A stretch of 64,000 nt of DNA, taken from the NCBI GenBank assembly GCA_026552975.1, contig JAPMTR010000063.1, positions 1 to 64,000 on the forward strand. The letters run 5' to 3'. Numbering within the stretch: position 1 is the stretch's first letter; each line of letters begins with the position of its first letter. Below, piece after piece: positions 23,337 to 31,034 of the stretch. The DNA is from Candidatus Methanoperedens sp. Its GTDB lineage: Archaea; Halobacteriota; Methanosarcinia; Methanosarcinales; Methanoperedenaceae. The translations under genes and the position numbers were made by a program. The notes under the pieces were generated by a model, which saw only the letters and a list, made by a program, of their open reading frames with translations, was not told the origin of the DNA and did no database searches.

Positions 23337-24194
23337 TTATCCAGATTGACTTTCGGCAATCATCTTCTCTATCAGCCTGATCTCTTTTTTTCCGCCCGCA
23401 TAGATTGGCGTAATATCGTCTATCGCCGTGGGCTTCATCTCAAGGATATCAGTTCGTCCATTACTTATCGCACCGCCAGCATCTGTTATTATCTTTCCGA
23501 TGGGATTTGCTTCAAAAAGCAGTCGCAGCTTTCCTTTTTCTTTTCCTGCATAACCCGGATATGTGAACACTCCACCTTTATGGAGTATCTGGTGCATGTC
23601 TGCAACGAATGAACCGCTAAAGCGCAGTTTATAGCCCTCATTTTCAAGTTCCTCGATGAATTTTGCATGGGCAGGCAGGTAATCTTTGCGAAGAGCGCCG
23701 GGTGCGTATAATTTGGCATCAGGTATCCGAATATCCTGTGCTGTCAGGTTGAACTCACCTTTTTCATCCATCACAAAGTCGCAAACACCATTACCCGCAG
23801 ATAATGTGAGCGTTGTAAGCGGGCCATAAAGAATATACATAGCAGCGATCATATTTTTGCCCTTATCAAGAACATTTCCTGGATATATCCCTATAATTGT
23901 CCCCACCGCAAGGTTCACGTCGATCAACGAAGAACCATCAAGAGGATCGATCACGACCCCGAACTGGTTTTTTGGATTTTCGATCTCAATAATGACGGGC
24001 TGTTCTTCTGTGGCGATATAACGCACCAGCCTGGTTTTCTTTAATCCTTTGATCAGGACATCGTCAGCCCACTTATCCAGTGCCATCTGTTCTTCGCCGT
24101 ACATATTTCTCGTCCCCGCCTTATCCTGGCTTTTCAAGAACCCGCTCTTTATTGTCTTTCCCTGTTCTGCCAGGAAAAGGATTAACTCTGACAA
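23337..24194 (-). CDS. fbp: Class I-type fructose-1,6-bisphosphatase
   Basis: Hydrolyses fructose-1,6-bisphosphate in gluconeogenesis. Conserved metal/substrate motifs are [34 protein letters not shown] and [24 protein letters not shown], then IYAGG near the end. The only standard start, TTG at 24194, gives 285 aa, but the frame stays open upstream to a stop at 24257. It encodes a plausible leader ([17 protein letters not shown]). An AGGAG site (24249-24253) lies 9 nt before an in-frame ATT at 24239. The true start may therefore be this ATT, adding 15 residues. Confidence 0.93.
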
Positions 24195-24354
24195 TCTCGG
24201 ATCCGTGTTTTTTTGTAAAAGGAAATCTTTAAGATAAATACTCTCACGCTCCTGTTAGTTATTCATTCTTTATAAGTAACTTCTTCTTGTTATTTTAGTA
24301 CTTAAGTACTTAAGCTATACGAAATCCTCTCGAATTTTCGACAAAACTTTCCAT

Positions 24355-24999
24355 TCATAATTCAAATCCAGCGATAAACTCTTTTAACTTAGCATGGTTC
24401 GCAAGTACCATATCCGCATCTTTTAACAATTCAGCTTTCACATACGTGGGAATGGCGATGCAGTACAAACCTGCACGTTTTGCAGATTCCACTCCAAGTG
24501 GTGCATTTTCAATGACGATACATTCGTTTTTTGAGACCTTTAGCATCTCAACAGCTTTTAAATATGGCTCAGGAGATGGCTTTCCTTCCTTTACATCGTT
24601 CCCGGAGACAATGGCCGAAAATGTTCCTGGAAAGAACCTTTCGATCAGATCAATTACCACTGCCCTGTCAGAACCAGATGCAACCCCAAAAAGACATTTA
24701 TCTTTCAAGGAATTTATACAATCGTATATCCCCTCAAAAACAGTCACCCTGTTGATCTTTTTAAAGATCTCCTGTTTTTTTTTGGCAAGAATTATGTAAT
24801 CCTCAGGTTCAGGTGACCTGCCTGCTTTTTTAAAAACCAGATCAATTATCCCGACATGGTTTGAGCCCTCGAATTCGTATAGCTCTTCACGGCTGATATT
24901 TATACCCACATCTTTGAAAACTGATCTCCATGCATCCACATGATATGGCATGGAATCGACAAGGATGCCATCCATGTCAAAGATCACAGCTTTTAACAT
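24355..24999 (-). CDS. HAD-superfamily phosphatase/phosphoglucomutase-like
   Basis: The protein has HAD motif I FDMDGILVDS at the N-terminus, motif II VASGSD, motif III lysine in VKEGKPSPEPYL and motif IV VIENAPLGVESAKRAG, with an alpha-helical cap between residues 15 and 85. The pattern fits beta-phosphoglucomutase-like or 2-deoxyglucose-6-phosphatase-like enzymes. I chose the ATG at 24999 because the earlier ATG (25023) would overlap the upstream regulator, while 24999 starts just after its stop. The two are probably co-transcribed. The substrate is a sugar phosphate, not further definable. Confidence 0.9.
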   Translation of the reverse strand: MLKAVIFDMDGILVDSMPYHVDAWRSVFKDVGINISREELYEFEGSNHVGIIDLVFKKAGRSPEPEDYIILAKKKQEIFKKINRVTVFEGIYDCINSLKDKCLFGVASGSDRAVVIDLIERFFPGTFSAIVSGNDVKEGKPSPEPYLKAVEMLKVSKNECIVIENAPLGVESAKRAGLYCIAIPTYVKAELLKDADMVLANHAKLKEFIAGFEL

Positions 25000-25000
25000 T

Positions 25001-25522
25001 TTACCCCATCTTTTTTGCAGCAAGCTCGATCGCTTCGATCAGACTATCTTTTGGCATTATCGAAGTAACAGGGATGCGCAGGATCTTCTCGACAGTGGTG
25101 CTTACGATTGGAGCGCAAACGAGTGCTTTTGCGCCATCTCGCTCTGCTTTTACTGCAGCGATAATGGCTTCTTCCATTGATGTAGCAGAATATTCCCTGA
25201 TAGTAAGAAGCCTGCCTCCAACTTTTAATTTTTTCTCTGTAATAAAATCAAGAACAGGACGGGCTGCTATGACCGCGATAAAATCATGTTTCATTGTTCC
25301 TTCTATCTTTCGAAGTACAACAACGATTTGCCGCAGGGTCTTGATATTTGGTTCTCTCTGTCCGGATAATAATTTATATAATGTGCTTGCAGGGATTTGT
25401 GACCTCTGACTAAAATCAGCGGCTGTCAAACGAAGTTCTTCTTTTAATATTCTCTGGAATTCCTTTATAAAGGCTTCATCTGATTCCATTGCTGCACGTA
25501 TCAGTTCTTCTGATGTCATCAC
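25001..25522 (-). CDS. XRE-type HTH regulator with ligand-like C-terminal domain
   Basis: The 173 aa protein has a Cro/CI-like helix-turn-helix at residues 35-72 (FSQRSQIPASTLYKLLSGQREPNIKTLRQ). It is followed by a domain of about 85 residues (HDFIAVIAARPVLDF to the end) resembling the archaeal COG1709-type regulators. That domain looks like an alpha/beta small-molecule sensor (ALVCAPIVSTTVEKILRIPVTSIMP). It leads a two-gene transcript with the HAD phosphatase. The target and ligand are unknown. Confidence 0.85.
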   Translation of the reverse strand: MMTSEELIRAAMESDEAFIKEFQRILKEELRLTAADFSQRSQIPASTLYKLLSGQREPNIKTLRQIVVVLRKIEGTMKHDFIAVIAARPVLDFITEKKLKVGGRLLTIREYSATSMEEAIIAAVKAERDGAKALVCAPIVSTTVEKILRIPVTSIMPKDSLIEAIELAAKKMG

Positions 25523-25660
25523 GATCGTATAGTGGCTATTTAATATTATACGTTTGGGTCAATCGAAAATATTATGAGGTTTTGCAGCAATTCTTTTCCC
25601 GCGATCCCGGAAAATCAGGCGGAGTTATTATATACTTTAAATACATAAAATTAAACTGTT

Positions 25661-26497
25661 ATGAAAGTTGAATTTCCAACAGAATTGAAAAAACTTGAGA
25701 CTGAGTTAAAACTCCGTGGCTTTTCAAGACAGACATCAAAGATGTATCTTTTCTATAATCGCAAGTTCCTAGAATTTATTAAGAAAGATCCCAAAGAGAT
25801 AACGGATGATGACATAAAAGAGTTCCTTGCATCCAAGATTTCAGATGATTCGCTATCAAATTCCTCGGTCGCGCTTATAAAAGCAGCACTGAAATTTTTC
25901 TACACAGAAATGCTTGGGAAAAACATGTCCATGATAAAAACGCCAAAAGCATCAAAAAAGCTCCCTGTGGTACTGACACATAAAGAGATTAAAGATCTTA
26001 TCAATAATACTGAAAACATAAAGCACAGGCTCTTAATTGAACTTCTCTATTCCACCGGACTTCGGCTTTCAGAATGCATCAACCTGCAATATTCTGACCT
26101 TGATCTGAATGACGGCACAGGTTGGGTACGTCTTGGAAAAGGTGCAAAAGACAGGATATTTATTGTCTCTGAAATATTCAAGAAAGACCTTCTAGACTAC
26201 ATTGTAAAAACAAATACAGATGGAAAAGGTTATGTTTTTTCGATAAAAGGTAGGAAAATGTCATCAAGCGGTATCCAGCGTGCGATAAAAATCTCCGCCC
26301 AGCGCGCTGGCATCGACAAACCTGTACACGTACACACGCTGCGTCATTCTTTCGCAACGCATCTTCTTGAGAACGGCGTGGATATAAGGAAAATCCAGAA
26401 GCTTCTGGGACACTCCAATTTGCAGACCACTCAGATATATACGCAGGTTTCAAACGAGGAGATTAAAAAGATCAAAAGCCCACTGGATATGCTGTAA
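25661..26497 (+). CDS. XerA-like tyrosine recombinase
   Basis: The 278 aa protein is an integrase of the Xer type. It has an N-terminal SAM-like core-binding domain (residues 5-95) and a catalytic domain with Arg in STGLRLSECINL, the beta-hairpin Lys in LGKGAKDR, the HTLRHSFATHLL box, LLGHSNLQTTQIY with the second His and the Tyr nucleophile. Its length fits chromosome-dimer resolving XerA or a small mobile-element integrase. The 3'-terminal 39 bp recur 1.4 kb downstream beyond a DUF4143 ATPase, so this locus has taken part in recombination. Confidence 0.93.
   Translation: MKVEFPTELKKLETELKLRGFSRQTSKMYLFYNRKFLEFIKKDPKEITDDDIKEFLASKISDDSLSNSSVALIKAALKFFYTEMLGKNMSMIKTPKASKKLPVVLTHKEIKDLINNTENIKHRLLIELLYSTGLRLSECINLQYSDLDLNDGTGWVRLGKGAKDRIFIVSEIFKKDLLDYIVKTNTDGKGYVFSIKGRKMSSSGIQRAIKISAQRAGIDKPVHVHTLRHSFATHLLENGVDIRKIQKLLGHSNLQTTQIYTQVSNEEIKKIKSPLDML
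26459..26497 (+). repeat. Recombinase 3'-end repeat, left copy
   Basis: The last 13 codons of the recombinase gene (from a GAG at 26459 to the TAA) are repeated at 27888-27926 with 33 of 39 bases identical, and the reading frame and stop codon are kept. The pair brackets the tandem-repeat array and the DUF4143 ATPase gene. Confidence 0.8.
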
Positions 26498-26561
26498 TGC
26501 TTTAATTGGACTTGTATATCCATTCACCCCGCATTTTTCAATAAATTATGATCACATTTTA

Positions 26562-26671
26562 TTTTTAGTATAACTTTTATTAAACTATATATTATTTTTA
26601 GTATAACTTTTATTAAACTATATATTATTTTTAGTATAACTTTTATTAAACTATAATTTATTTTTAGTAAA
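26562..26671. repeat. 33-bp AT-rich tandem repeat (3.3 copies)
   Basis: Units starting with TTTTTAGTATAACTTTTAT begin at 26562, 26595, 26628 and, truncated after about 10 matching bases, 26661. The period is exactly 33 bp, and the three full copies are nearly identical. The array is about 90% A+T and occupies the region between the recombinase and the ATPase start at 26703. It has no spacer variation, so it is not CRISPR. An iteron-like binding site, a promoter array or a recombination site is possible. Confidence 0.85.
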
Positions 26672-26702
26672 TATTATATACTTAAGATACCAATTACTCA
26701 CT

Positions 26703-27875
26703 ATGTATGTTGAAAGAGAGATCAATGAACATTTTAAGAAAGTTGCTAATATTTATAATATAATAGCTGTTGTAGGGGCGCGACAGGCAGGAAAGACGAC
26801 ATTTCTTAAAGAGAAAGCTAAGGAGTTCAACTCTTCATATTTATTTTTTGATGATCCGGATGTGAGGGGACTATTTAATGATGATATTAAAAAATTTGAA
26901 ATACAATATCTTGAAAACCATAATGTGACCGTGCTTGATGAAGTTCAGTATTGCAAAGATGCCGGTATCAAGCTGAAATATCTCGCAGATAAAGGCAAGA
27001 AGATATGGATCACATCATCTTCCGAGATCATTTTGGGGACTGAAATACTATCATATCTTGTAGGTAGGGTTTCTATCATCCGGCTTTACCCTTTTTCTCT
27101 CAGGGAATTTCTCCTTGCAAAGGGCCAGAAGGAAGTGACACATAGCATTCTTGAAAGAAGTATCTGGGAGCACATCACATATGGCGGTTATCCCAGAGTT
27201 GTTATGAATAATGATACTGAGATCAAAAAGATAATTCTTAAAGATCTGTATGATACTATGGTCTTAAAGGATGTGGCAATGACTTTTTCCATTGAAGATA
27301 TTAGAACTCTTGAAGTTTTGATAAAATACCTCTCTGTGAATGTCGGGGGTATTGTTTCTTATGAAAATATTTCAAGAGATATAAAGATCTCATTCCAGAC
27401 TCTAAAAAAATATCTGGATGCGCTTGAGAAAAGTTATGTAATTATAAGGTTATCACCATTTTATACAAATAAAACCAAAGAGATAACAAAGCAGCCCAAA
27501 ATATATTTTGTGGATACAGGATTGAGAAATGTTATCGCTAAATCTTTTCCCCCAGAAATGAATGGTTTGCTATTTGAGAATTACATTCTTCTTGAATTGA
27601 TCAAAATGGGTTTTTCTCCAAAATACTGGAGAACAAAATCTAAAACTGAAGTGGATTTTCTGATCGAAAAAGAGAACATCACAATTCCTATTGAGGTGAA
27701 AATAAATGCAGAGGTAGGAAATGTCAAAAGGAGCATGCGTTCTTTCATTGATTATTATAGACCTGATAAAGCAATTGTTGTGGCTTATAAATGCAAAAAA
27801 GGTGAAATGAATATTGAAGGATGCACTGTTATTTTTACAGATGTTCAAGGAATGAGGGACATTTTACTTCTATGA
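26703..27875 (+). CDS. AAA ATPase with DUF4143 domain
   Basis: The 390 aa protein has Walker A VVGARQAGKTT near residue 25, Walker B VTVLDEVQY near 80 and a sensor region (IWITSSSE). A winged-helix-like middle (VGGIVSYENISRDIKISFQTLKKYLDAL) follows. The DUF4143 end contains KTEVDFLIEKENITIPIEVK, a PD-(D/E)XK-nuclease-like E...D...ExK arrangement. Such proteins are abundant in archaea, move readily and have no settled role. The coding region is AT-rich, preceded by a 33-bp repeat array and followed by a duplicate of the recombinase end, suggesting acquisition as a cassette. Confidence 0.92.
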   Translation: MYVEREINEHFKKVANIYNIIAVVGARQAGKTTFLKEKAKEFNSSYLFFDDPDVRGLFNDDIKKFEIQYLENHNVTVLDEVQYCKDAGIKLKYLADKGKKIWITSSSEIILGTEILSYLVGRVSIIRLYPFSLREFLLAKGQKEVTHSILERSIWEHITYGGYPRVVMNNDTEIKKIILKDLYDTMVLKDVAMTFSIEDIRTLEVLIKYLSVNVGGIVSYENISRDIKISFQTLKKYLDALEKSYVIIRLSPFYTNKTKEITKQPKIYFVDTGLRNVIAKSFPPEMNGLLFENYILLELIKMGFSPKYWRTKSKTEVDFLIEKENITIPIEVKINAEVGNVKRSMRSFIDYYRPDKAIVVAYKCKKGEMNIEGCTVIFTDVQGMRDILLL

Positions 27876-27887
27876 AGATATATAGGA

Positions 27888-27926
27888 GAAATAAAAAAGA
27901 TCAAGAGCCGGCTGGATATGCTTTAA
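27888..27926 (+). pseudogene. Recombinase 3'-end fragment (right copy of repeat)
   Basis: This stretch translates to EIKKIKSRLDMLstop, versus EIKKIKSPLDMLstop in the intact recombinase gene ending at 26497. It is a 3' relic of a second, slightly diverged recombinase gene or a duplicated attachment region. It starts 13 nt after the ATPase stop codon. The rest up to the GTPase gene (27927-28117) holds no gene, only a TATA-like sequence near 28028. Confidence 0.75.
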
Positions 27927-28117
27927 TTTTATGAGTAAGATAGGAGCAGACATGAGATAGGATGTGATTTTGTTAGGAGTGATATAAACATTTTTTATCT
28001 GCTCATACTTATGATAATCATAAAGGTATATAAGGATTTATCTATCTAAAATTAACATAATGATGAAAACCCCACCATACCACTCCTTATTTCCTATCAT
28101 GCATATTAGGACATAGA

Positions 28118-28891
28118 ATGACAAGCTACAAAGTAATGGTAAAGGATGTAATTAAACAGGCAGATGTCCTTCTTGAGATCATAGATGCACGATTTCCGGA
28201 AGAGACAAGAAACCACGAGGTTGAGCGTGATGTGGCGCGTTCAAAAAAGCCTCTGATAATAGTTATTAACAAATGTGATCTCGTATCAAGGGAAATACTT
28301 GAAGAAACAAAATCACGACTGTCAAAGATCGCTCCCACTGTATTTGTGTCAAGCAGGGATGGATTCGGAAAAACAATGTTAAGGCATATGATACTTATAA
28401 ACGCCGGCATAAAAGGACGTGATATCCTGGTGGGAACTCTTGGATATCCAAATACAGGAAAATCCTCGGTTGTCAATGCCGTATCCGGGAGGCACTCGGC
28501 CCCCACCTCGCCAATATCCGGTCATACAAAGGGAGTACAAATTGTGAAGGCAGGATCGCGTATAAGGTTTATCGATACTCCGGGAGTGATACCCTTTGGC
28601 GAGAACGACCAGTATTTGCAGGGCATTCTGGGGGTGAAAAGTGCATCACATCTGGAGGACCCCATTGGCGTTGCATTGAAAATAATTGAGAAAATGTGCA
28701 AGGAAAACAAAACTGCCCTTGAATCCTTCTATAAAGTAACAATTGAGGGGTCTGACCCCAATGATGCGCTTTTACTCATTGGGCGACAGTGCAACTTCCT
28801 CCAGAAGAAAGGTGAAATTGATGAATCACGCACTGCCATGAAGATCATCGACGACTGGCAAAAAGGGGCCATTATGAATGAATCACCTTGA
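28118..28891 (+). CDS. Circularly permuted YlqF/RbgA-type GTPase
   Basis: The 257 aa protein has GTPase motifs in permuted order: G4 INKCDL near residue 50, then G5-like VSSRDG, then G1 GYPNTGKSSV (near 110), the switch region and G3 DTPGV near 150. Such proteins assist large-subunit ribosome assembly in bacteria, eukaryotes and archaea. The N-terminal VLLEIIDARFPEETRN is the usual lead-in of the family. The 3' end overlaps the convergent YwbE-like gene by 20 nt. Confidence 0.92.
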   Translation: MTSYKVMVKDVIKQADVLLEIIDARFPEETRNHEVERDVARSKKPLIIVINKCDLVSREILEETKSRLSKIAPTVFVSSRDGFGKTMLRHMILINAGIKGRDILVGTLGYPNTGKSSVVNAVSGRHSAPTSPISGHTKGVQIVKAGSRIRFIDTPGVIPFGENDQYLQGILGVKSASHLEDPIGVALKIIEKMCKENKTALESFYKVTIEGSDPNDALLLIGRQCNFLQKKGEIDESRTAMKIIDDWQKGAIMNESP

Positions 28892-29075
28892 CACGTCCAA
28901 CTTTGCCATCCATCAATTCAACTTTTATTCCGTTAGGATGAAATGATGAATTGGTAAGGATCCTTTTCACAATACCTCGTGTAATTTTTCCACTCCTTTG
29001 ATCCTGTTTCAAAACGATCCCCACACTTATTCCTGGTTTGATATTTTCGCGGTTGGTACCTTTTTCCATAGTCAA
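28872..29075 (-). CDS. YwbE-family small protein (DUF2196)
   Basis: The 67 aa protein matches the YwbE family: RENIKPGISVGIVLKQDQRSG, TRGIVKRILTNSS, HPNGIKVELMDGKVGRV, a small beta-barrel-like fold of KOW/SH3 appearance. Its function is not established; the fold suggests RNA or ribosome binding. It overlaps the end of the GTPase gene on the other strand, and the IS607 element begins just beyond its start. Two in-frame ATGs (29075, 29069) could initiate. Confidence 0.9.
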   Translation of the reverse strand: MTMEKGTNRENIKPGISVGIVLKQDQRSGKITRGIVKRILTNSSFHPNGIKVELMDGKVGRVKVIHS

Positions 29076-29128
29076 ATATTAATTCCTGGTTAGGCTATGA
29101 AAACCATTAACAGTATCCAAGTTTCCAT

Positions 29129-30388
29129 TCATAAGGTATCACTCCTTATTGGGTGTAGCCCTACACCCTCTATTCCTTTTGCAAATGCATCAGGAATTGC
29201 TTTTCTGATTATGTTGTAAGCACCATTGACATCTGAATTCATGACCGTTCCATTTGCTGACCTGAAAAGACCTCTTGAGAACCTTACACCTTTGTATTTC
29301 TCTTGATGGCAGATAGGTTCTGAATCAAGGAAAGAACATTTTGAAGTATGGGATTCCTGTTGAAGTTTAACCGTTATGCCTTCCGCTTCTGCTTTGTATT
29401 GAAGCATTTCGATTAACTTGTAATGAGGAATTTGCACGAAATTCTGATTATTCCTCTTTCCCATATTGGCTTCTTGTTTCCAATTATCATTTTTACCAAT
29501 TACTATCGTCCCAATGTTATTTTCAAGGCAATAGTTAATGGTATATCTGGAAATCTTATGCATTGTATCCTTGATCTTATAATTTCGCTTTGAATTCAGT
29601 TGGGACATTCTTGTTCCAAACTTAATCCCCTGCTTATCATAAATGGATTGCAGTAGTGCTTTTTCTTTATTATAGAACTGATTCATTGATTTTAAAATAC
29701 CGCCTTTAATAATAATTGGTATTTCACCAATATTATTTGCAATAGTTACGACATTTCTTAATCCAAGATCAATGCCTATAATTCTGTTTGAATTAACTCT
29801 TTTTGAATACCAGCGTTTGTTTATTTCACCTTCTTCCGATAATGTTTCATAAACTATTTCACAAATGTAACCTATGCCTTTTGGTATTACCCGGACTTCG
29901 CATAGCTTCGTATTGTCTGGAAGTCTTGTTTTGATTTTCAATGGTAATTTCTTTGTGAATGTAAGGTAATGGTCTTTTATTGAAACCTGTTGATTTGTGA
30001 AGATGAGAATTGCTTCTCCATCTTTCGGTTTGTATTGTGGGGGCTTTGGTTCGCCCAAGAACCTATCTGGATTGTTGGAATATTCCTTTAACGCATTCCA
30101 GTATGATTTCCATGATCTATCAAGGACTTTAAGCAATTGTTGTGCTGATTGTGCATTTAATCCTTTGAAATTCTCAGAGGTTTTCATTGTTCCTGCAAGA
30201 ACATTGTACCCCGGTATTTTTTCTTTTGGTTCTTCTGGATGATGTTTGTTATGGAAATACGCCTGTCGCATTGGGTATAATGATTCATTCCACAAATTCT
30301 TCGCTAAATGGCATAGAACACTAAGTTCGTCCGTACCGTCTATTTGGATTTGCTCCGTTCTAATCAATTGCATCTGTGGAAACCTCAA
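29129..30388 (-). CDS. tnpB: TnpB RNA-guided endonuclease of the IS607 element
   Basis: The 419 aa protein has an N-terminal helical/OrfB domain and the RuvC-like nuclease: IGIDLGLRNVVTIANN (first Asp), TIVIGKNDNWKQE in the position of the Glu-containing strand, and SANGTVMNSDVNGAYNI (third Asp in the DVNGAYN motif). The zinc-finger region is the reduced form typical of this branch (SKCSFLDSEPICHQEKYKGVRFSRGLFR). All three acidic positions appear intact, so it may be active. TnpB cuts DNA beside a short target motif with an omega RNA made from the element's end, favouring element retention. Confidence 0.93.
   Translation of the reverse strand: MRFPQMQLIRTEQIQIDGTDELSVLCHLAKNLWNESLYPMRQAYFHNKHHPEEPKEKIPGYNVLAGTMKTSENFKGLNAQSAQQLLKVLDRSWKSYWNALKEYSNNPDRFLGEPKPPQYKPKDGEAILIFTNQQVSIKDHYLTFTKKLPLKIKTRLPDNTKLCEVRVIPKGIGYICEIVYETLSEEGEINKRWYSKRVNSNRIIGIDLGLRNVVTIANNIGEIPIIIKGGILKSMNQFYNKEKALLQSIYDKQGIKFGTRMSQLNSKRNYKIKDTMHKISRYTINYCLENNIGTIVIGKNDNWKQEANMGKRNNQNFVQIPHYKLIEMLQYKAEAEGITVKLQQESHTSKCSFLDSEPICHQEKYKGVRFSRGLFRSANGTVMNSDVNGAYNIIRKAIPDAFAKGIEGVGLHPIRSDTL
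29151..29168 (-). ncRNA. Hairpin at the IS607 tnpB 3' end, omega-RNA candidate
   Basis: GGGTGTAG and CTACACCC form a perfect 8-bp stem with a 2-base turn inside the last codons of tnpB. TnpB guide RNAs overlap the tnpB 3' end and use such hairpins as scaffold, with the guide sequence running past the element end. Here that would read towards 29080-29120. The structure is seen; the RNA is inferred. Confidence 0.45.
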
Positions 30389-30956
30389 TGTGTTTGTTGT
30401 TCTTCCGTTTGCTATAAAGTTTCATTGAATAACAATGAAGCAAAGACACTATTTCCTCAAATATTTCTTCGGAATCAAGTTTAGCGTTTCCAATTTCTGA
30501 AACAACTACTATCTCTGTCCCGTATTGTTTGAATAAATATGAAAACAACTCAAATCCAATACGGCTTAATCGGTCTTTATAGGCAATTATTACTTTTTCA
30601 ACTTTATGATTAATGATCTCATCCAGCATCACAAAGAAGTCTTTTCTCTTATCAAATGAAATGCCAGAGGCTACATCTGAATAAATAGCATTCAATTGAT
30701 TTCCGTTACTAAAACACCATGATTTTAAGAAGTCTATTTGATTTTCGAGGTCTTTTTTTTGCTTTGAAGTGCTTACTCTTGCGTAAATTATAACCTTGCG
30801 TTTGATGTCTTTATTCAATATTTTATAAACATCCTCTTCATTGTAATTGTAATATTTATTTGGTTGAACTTCAATTCTTATTGTTCCGTTTGAAACGTAA
30901 CGTGTAAGAGTATTCCTTGAAATTCTTAGTAAATTCAATACTTCTTTGGCTTTCAT
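30360..30956 (-). CDS. tnpA: IS607 serine recombinase (transposase TnpA)
   Basis: The 198 aa protein has an N-terminal MerR-like helix-turn-helix (KAKEVLNLLRISRNTLTRYVSNG). A serine-resolvase catalytic domain follows: IIYARVSTSKQKKDLENQ holds the catalytic Ser, and VIIAYKDRLSRIGFELF holds the conserved YKDRLSR. DNA-binding first and catalysis second is the hallmark order of IS607 TnpA. Its 3' end overlaps tnpB by 29 nt, giving translational coupling. The length is normal, so it seems intact. Confidence 0.95.
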   Translation of the reverse strand: MKAKEVLNLLRISRNTLTRYVSNGTIRIEVQPNKYYNYNEEDVYKILNKDIKRKVIIYARVSTSKQKKDLENQIDFLKSWCFSNGNQLNAIYSDVASGISFDKRKDFFVMLDEIINHKVEKVIIAYKDRLSRIGFELFSYLFKQYGTEIVVVSEIGNAKLDSEEIFEEIVSLLHCYSMKLYSKRKNNKHIEVSTDAID

Positions 30957-31034
30957 GTTGGTTATGATATTATATGGTGATACTAATGCATATAGTTACC
31001 AGAATAACGGACTATATGAATATGCTCAATATAC

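Follow-up and report, generated by a model that had tools for sequence, protein, structure and literature searches.

Two copies of the end of one gene stand on either side of another in the DNA analysed here, a 64,000-nucleotide stretch (the window) that is part of a single 114-kb contig (G000:C117). The first is the end of an intact tyrosine recombinase gene, xerA, whose product is the chromosome-resolving recombinase of this archaeon, and the second lies beyond the neighbouring ATPase gene (Table 1). How did this arrangement arise? A preliminary description had offered two answers, a cassette that integrates at the recombinase 3′-end and the scar left when two recombinase genes recombined. 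The second fits the results given below, since the 3′-ends diverge in the way of two distinct xerA alleles, and comparable loci free of the ATPase exist; the first is not supported. The contents of the insert were as had been described, with a 33-bp repeat array and the ATPase lying between the copies. The array is AT-rich and comprises 3.4 copies of its period with a 97% match. The ATPase was the only ORF between the two 39-bp copies, and the insert encoded no integrase or transposase. A search of positions 24000–31000 for Rfam RNAs found none.

Table 1. Features of the xerA–ATPase locus in the window, and the loci at which a gene–ATPase–relic arrangement was resolved.
Locus	Feature	Position (bp)	Strand	Remarks
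Window	Rearrangement breakpoint just left of the xerA promoter	25568–25586		Homology to the G017 HTH-gene flank stops at ~25567
Window	xerA promoter segment	25587–25660	+	Common to G030 and G004
Window	xerA, intact XerA tyrosine recombinase, 278 aa	25661–26497	+	Allele groups with those of G004/G030 and not with that of sister G017
Window	Copy 1, final 39 bp of intact xerA	26459–26497	+	
Window	Operator-like array	26559–26669	+	33-bp period; half-sites akin to AGTTTAAnnnTAGT and ACTAnnnTTAAACT in alternation
Window	TATA-like box	near 26673		Directly adjoined by the last array half-site
Window	PDC-S01-type ATPase, AAA_14 then DUF4143	26703–27875	+	Walker A GARQAGKT, Walker B LDEVQ
Window	DUF4143 part of the ATPase			PD-(D/E)XK-like motif E..EVDF..PIEVK
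Window	Copy 2, 3′-end relic of a second xerA allele	27888–27926	+	EIKKIKSRLDML*
Window	Native downstream flank of the displaced xerA	27928–28066	+	74% identity to the sequence after xerA in G017
Window	GTPase gene, native xerA neighbour	28118–28891	+	Also downstream of xerA in G017 and G016
Window	Resolved scar at xerA			
L176	Resolved scar at aspS			
L172	Resolved scar at a hexapeptide acyltransferase gene			
L101	Resolved scar at a HIT gene			
L115	Resolved scar at a HAD gene			

Alignment of the two copies confirmed the reported recurrence (33/39 identities). Copy 2 begins 13 bp past the ATPase stop codon and, as had also been noted, keeps the codon frame of xerA. The homology stops essentially at the stop codon; a 10-mer, TGCTTTAATT, is shared after the first stop, possibly by chance, as TGTTATAA occupies the corresponding position in relatives. 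Searching same-genus genomes with the xerA 3′-end pattern (up to 3 mismatches) gave matches in 27 of them, two in G000 and exactly one in each of the 26 others, while the reversed control pattern had 0 matches in same-genus genomes. Local alignment of the two flanks scored 53.5, higher than all 272 mismatched-flank controls (maximum 34.5). On the pattern counts and the flank score, the repeat is therefore above chance.

Five of the six differences between the 39-mers are at third codon positions, and 33/39 falls within the range seen between species for this part of xerA (29–36 of 39). The same bias was found at two further loci flanked by such repeats, L101 (7/8) and L176 (3/3), giving a pooled value of 15/17 for the three (hand-computed p ~5e-6 against one third). 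By their substitutions the two 39-mers behave as two xerA alleles, the relic being too short, at 39 bp, for placement in a tree. A simple target-site duplication as the sole cause was rejected because the copies diverge like alleles; the same picture could arise if a long target duplication had preceded an exchange of alleles.

The preliminary description had proposed looking in relatives for an empty site, and comparable loci were found. In G016 the GTPase gene directly follows xerA, and in G017 xerA is followed by the GTPase gene with a different spacer of 0.9 kb; neither of these two nearest comparable loci carries the ATPase. Trees of CDC48 and of the GTPase (100/99 and 100/100, respectively) showed G017 to be the sister genome of G000. 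Copy 2 and the flank that follows it are collinear with the 3′-end of the G017 xerA and its downstream sequence, so that copy 2, on the far side of the ATPase, stands where the native xerA would end.

The intact G000 xerA grouped with those of G004 and G030 (100/99), and its grouping with G017 was rejected (p-AU 2e-6). Its identities to G030 (88%) and to sister G017 (76%) had at first suggested that it is clearly foreign. The tree revealed an allele of a different type in G017, and alleles in G004 and G030 that do not sit where their own clade would place them. The view that the intact G000 xerA is clearly foreign was consequently dropped; since the G004/G030 alleles are themselves out of place, it may be the native allele. 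Elsewhere in the genus, genomes that are 93–95% alike in CDC48 may share just ~74% in xerA; G018 and G019 are 94.6% alike in CDC48 and 73.6% alike in xerA. Judging from these comparisons, xerA alleles are evidently exchanged within the genus.

The best reading of the locus, to which we assign a probability of about 0.6, is horizontal acquisition in which one allele replaced another and one junction was illegitimate, leaving the 3′-end of the displaced gene behind. An ATPase gene of the PDC-S01/DUF4143 type, solitary and equipped with its own promoter and operator array, would have arrived by horizontal transfer together with the preceding xerA allele. Homologous recombination with the resident locus would have anchored one end of the incoming DNA, in or upstream of xerA; at its other end we infer an illegitimate join inside the resident xerA, 39 bp before the gene end. 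The outcome would be an intact xerA and the ATPase, followed, ahead of the GTPase gene, by a harmless relic comprising the 13 terminal codons of the xerA that was displaced. No donor of the acquired DNA was found. Remnants of displaced effector/immunity genes at Vibrio cholerae T6SS loci, and orphan Rhs 3′-ends, have been attributed to homology-facilitated illegitimate recombination (PMC5361080). The likeness lies in an upstream homologous anchor, new cargo and the 3′-part of a displaced gene shifted downstream (PMC5361080), whereas the loci of the window type are archaeal, carry a single ATPase as cargo, and keep intact their anchor, which is an ordinary gene such as xerA, aspS, HIT or HAD.

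The anatomy is also compatible with two successive events, in which a second xerA–ATPase block entered beside the resident xerA and the resident was then eroded to its last 39 bp. The 5′-side of xerA bears on this. In the other genomes examined (L040–L050), arrays of a CCGTWACGG palindrome with a period of 26–27 bp lie near xerA, and strict matches to such arrays are rare elsewhere; they are a possible XerA-linked cis site. The sole strict match in G000 is on a different contig, C61 (L159, 9893 bp–10147 bp), in a context that corresponds to the sequence preceding xerA in G030 but without xerA. With this part of the former xerA locus now on C61 and the window xerA promoter joined to the flank of an HTH gene, a chromosomal rearrangement has its breakpoint at the xerA block too, as a two-event history could have it. 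Such a history, though, requires a deletion that halted within 13 bp of the ATPase stop codon, and the same end state at several unrelated loci favours a one-step route; we regard it as quite improbable.

That end state was encountered repeatedly. Comparison of the left and right flanks of ORFs of at least 200 aa revealed strong direct repeats around 7/48 PDC-S01/DUF4143 ORFs versus 7/533 others (Fisher p 3.8e-5), an approximately tenfold enrichment in a sample that mixes genomes and search methods. At the threshold applied, the other 41 of the 48 DUF4143 genes had no flanking repeat, and three of the seven repeat-flanked ORFs outside the family were xerA loci bordered by short repeat arrays. 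Detailed analysis resolved five cases (Table 1), each with an intact gene, an ATPase in either orientation and then a 3′ relic of the same gene. All five combine foreign cargo and an intact allele with a relic of another allele beyond. At a further site, L183 (1170 bp–6045 bp), three consecutive DUF4143 ATPases are interspersed with recurring fragments of the same sequences, an apparent case of repeated acquisition at one site.

The origin of the two copies was tested for one HAD gene, in G021. Grouping of the intact copy with that of the sister genome G011 was rejected (p-AU 0.0009), the relic fell in a clade including G011, G016 and G018, and the two were not sisters (p-AU 0.03). These tree placements mark the intact copy as foreign and the relic as native. 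An early table of HAD identities had suggested the opposite copy to be native and was superseded by the tree with its AU test.

The preferred reading, allele replacement with one illegitimate junction, would make the recurring gene–ATPase–relic pattern a product of transfer, and the pattern points to repeatable swapping of such genes into archaeal genomes. If the scar is general, displaced 3′ relics offer a fingerprint for insertion sites, donors and the direction of transfer. The recurrence also bears on whether the assembly could have joined the xerA alleles of two strains, G000 being a metagenome-assembled genome in 121 contigs. An artefact of this kind is hardly credible, given that the G017-like native flank follows copy 2 within one 114-kb contig and that the same layout recurs in independent assemblies.

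Analysis of the ATPase revealed matches to PF13173 (AAA_14, E 2.4e-27) and PF13635 (DUF4143, E 3.5e-37) in Pfam and to the PADLOC candidate defence family PDC-S01 (E 1.5e-79), which makes it a member of this family by sequence. The Walker motifs are intact (GARQAGKTT and LDEVQY), with G25, G30, K31, T32, D79 and E80 invariant across 19 sequences. The E..EVDF..PIEVK motif is invariant in close relatives and presumably marks a PD-(D/E)XK nuclease-like domain. The predicted model was confident (pLDDT 90.6) and its best fold matches were the archaeal AAA+ ATPases 2fna and 2qen; a search by sequence found no related solved structure. A role in antiviral defence is a candidate function of the protein. 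PMC12988326 reports PDC-S01 to be a single-gene family that is abundant in archaea, ranks fourth in frequency among prokaryotic defence families and has undergone many cross-domain transfers; it describes experimental validation as pending for most PDCs. The operator array and the neighbour-gene 3′ relics are not among the family features described in the part of that source consulted here.

The nearest ATPase orthologue within the genus (77% amino acid identity) is encoded by G011, at the 3′-end of a DUF62 gene and followed by queA. In several relatives queA comes directly after DUF62, and G002 retains an array-like remnant there without the ATPase. A deeper sample of 392 genomes of the phylum contained the ATPase in G000 only at E ≤ 1e-110. 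Relatives with 53–72% identity occur sporadically in records of Thermoplasmata, Pacearchaeota, Nanoarchaeota, Nanohaloarchaea, Aenigmatarchaeota and Hydrothermarchaeota. Upstream of these relatives, the half-sites listed for the window array are found at about −48, −64, −81 and −97 from the start codon, adjoining a TATA box near −30, with 68 observed compared to 4.1 in shuffled sequence. From this distribution the ATPase evidently moves as a single gene, scattered sporadically across archaeal phyla and accompanied by its own dyad array beside the TATA box. Since the gene stands alone in unrelated hosts, the protein most likely to bind the array is the ATPase itself, which may regulate its own expression through it. 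An operator array conserved across phyla gives this uncharacterised ATPase a DNA partner that can be tested.

These distributions speak against the cassette interpretation in the preliminary description, and against a more specific form of it in which XerA or another tyrosine recombinase would have inserted a cassette at the xerA 3′-end, with the 39-mers as attL and attR. Direct repeats that overlap a gene 3′-end are typical of tyrosine-integrase attachment sites, and a recombinase gene is adjacent. Elements of tyrosine integrases, including the archaeal suicidal (SSV-type) integrases, likewise have repeats overlapping a gene 3′-end and leave the gene intact (PMC8371274). They differ from the window insert, which has no integrase or common att core, and from window-type loci generally, where the targets are unrelated and the repeats diverge like alleles, at the 39-mers mainly at synonymous sites. 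Close relatives of the ATPase lie at unrelated genes with unrelated repeats, the G011 orthologue at DUF62 and others at the 3′-ends of aspS, acyltransferase, HIT and HAD genes. A search for other cassettes flanked by the same 39 bp, also suggested earlier, found none, the 26 other genus genomes being without a second copy, and a search of viral contigs found no relative of the window xerA or ATPase. As the G011 orthologue and other relatives sit at other genes and the 39-mer is unduplicated in those 26 genomes, the recombinase is not the target as such and no shared att core was seen. With targets and repeats varying from case to case and an integrase absent, site-specific integration at xerA is disfavoured, and we judge it very unlikely.

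A more active role of the ATPase itself would also account for several of these observations. Its AAA+ and PD-(D/E)XK-like domains, together with the self-specific dyad array, might break or invade gene 3′-ends in a homing- or transposition-like manner, the insertion making the 3′ duplication. The enrichment of repeats around DUF4143 ORFs, the solo gene common to distant archaeal phyla, the cis array kept at a fixed spacing, the ATPases stacked among gene fragments in L183 and the invariant nuclease-like motif are all in keeping with this. The repeats, however, vary widely in length (~30–180 bp) and have no shared ends or terminal repeats, and all well-measured copies diverge by ~8–20%, as alleles do, rather than being identical. 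Cargo other than ATPases shows the same layout too, namely a pair of genes in G019 and a dehydrogenase-like gene in L056. Defence-type genes in any case undergo frequent transfer, which for this family could explain the enrichment. Active movement is on balance unlikely. An extension of this idea, which we hold to be distinctly unlikely, is that PDC-S01/DUF4143 ATPase-nucleases are self-spreading, the product of each subfamily recognising that subfamily's own upstream dyad array and promoting capture of its gene at gene 3′-ends with the neighbouring allele in the manner of a homing-like defence gene.

Several further arrangements were observed. In L230 (3338 bp–4275 bp, G019:C192) a pair of small ORFs replaces the ATPase at a HAD-gene 3′-end, adjoining a HAD 3′ relic and a palindrome that matches the operator of the G021 ATPase. 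Short C-terminal fragments (~30–60 codons, some with stops) found with the XerA query in many genus genomes (L051–L067) were set aside, as they belong to another XerC/D-like recombinase family and were not seen flanking ATPases. Near the GTPase gene, the window encodes a TnpA of the serine-recombinase family (IS607-like) and a TnpB-like gene on the minus strand (29129 bp–30956 bp). In G017 (L017, 1002 bp–2316 bp), an ORF for an HNH endonuclease (118 aa) forms a block with xerA that is also present in L027 (G018) and L022 (G028). This block, common to distant genomes, stops exactly at the xerA stop codon and possibly reflects homing-driven exchange of xerA alleles.
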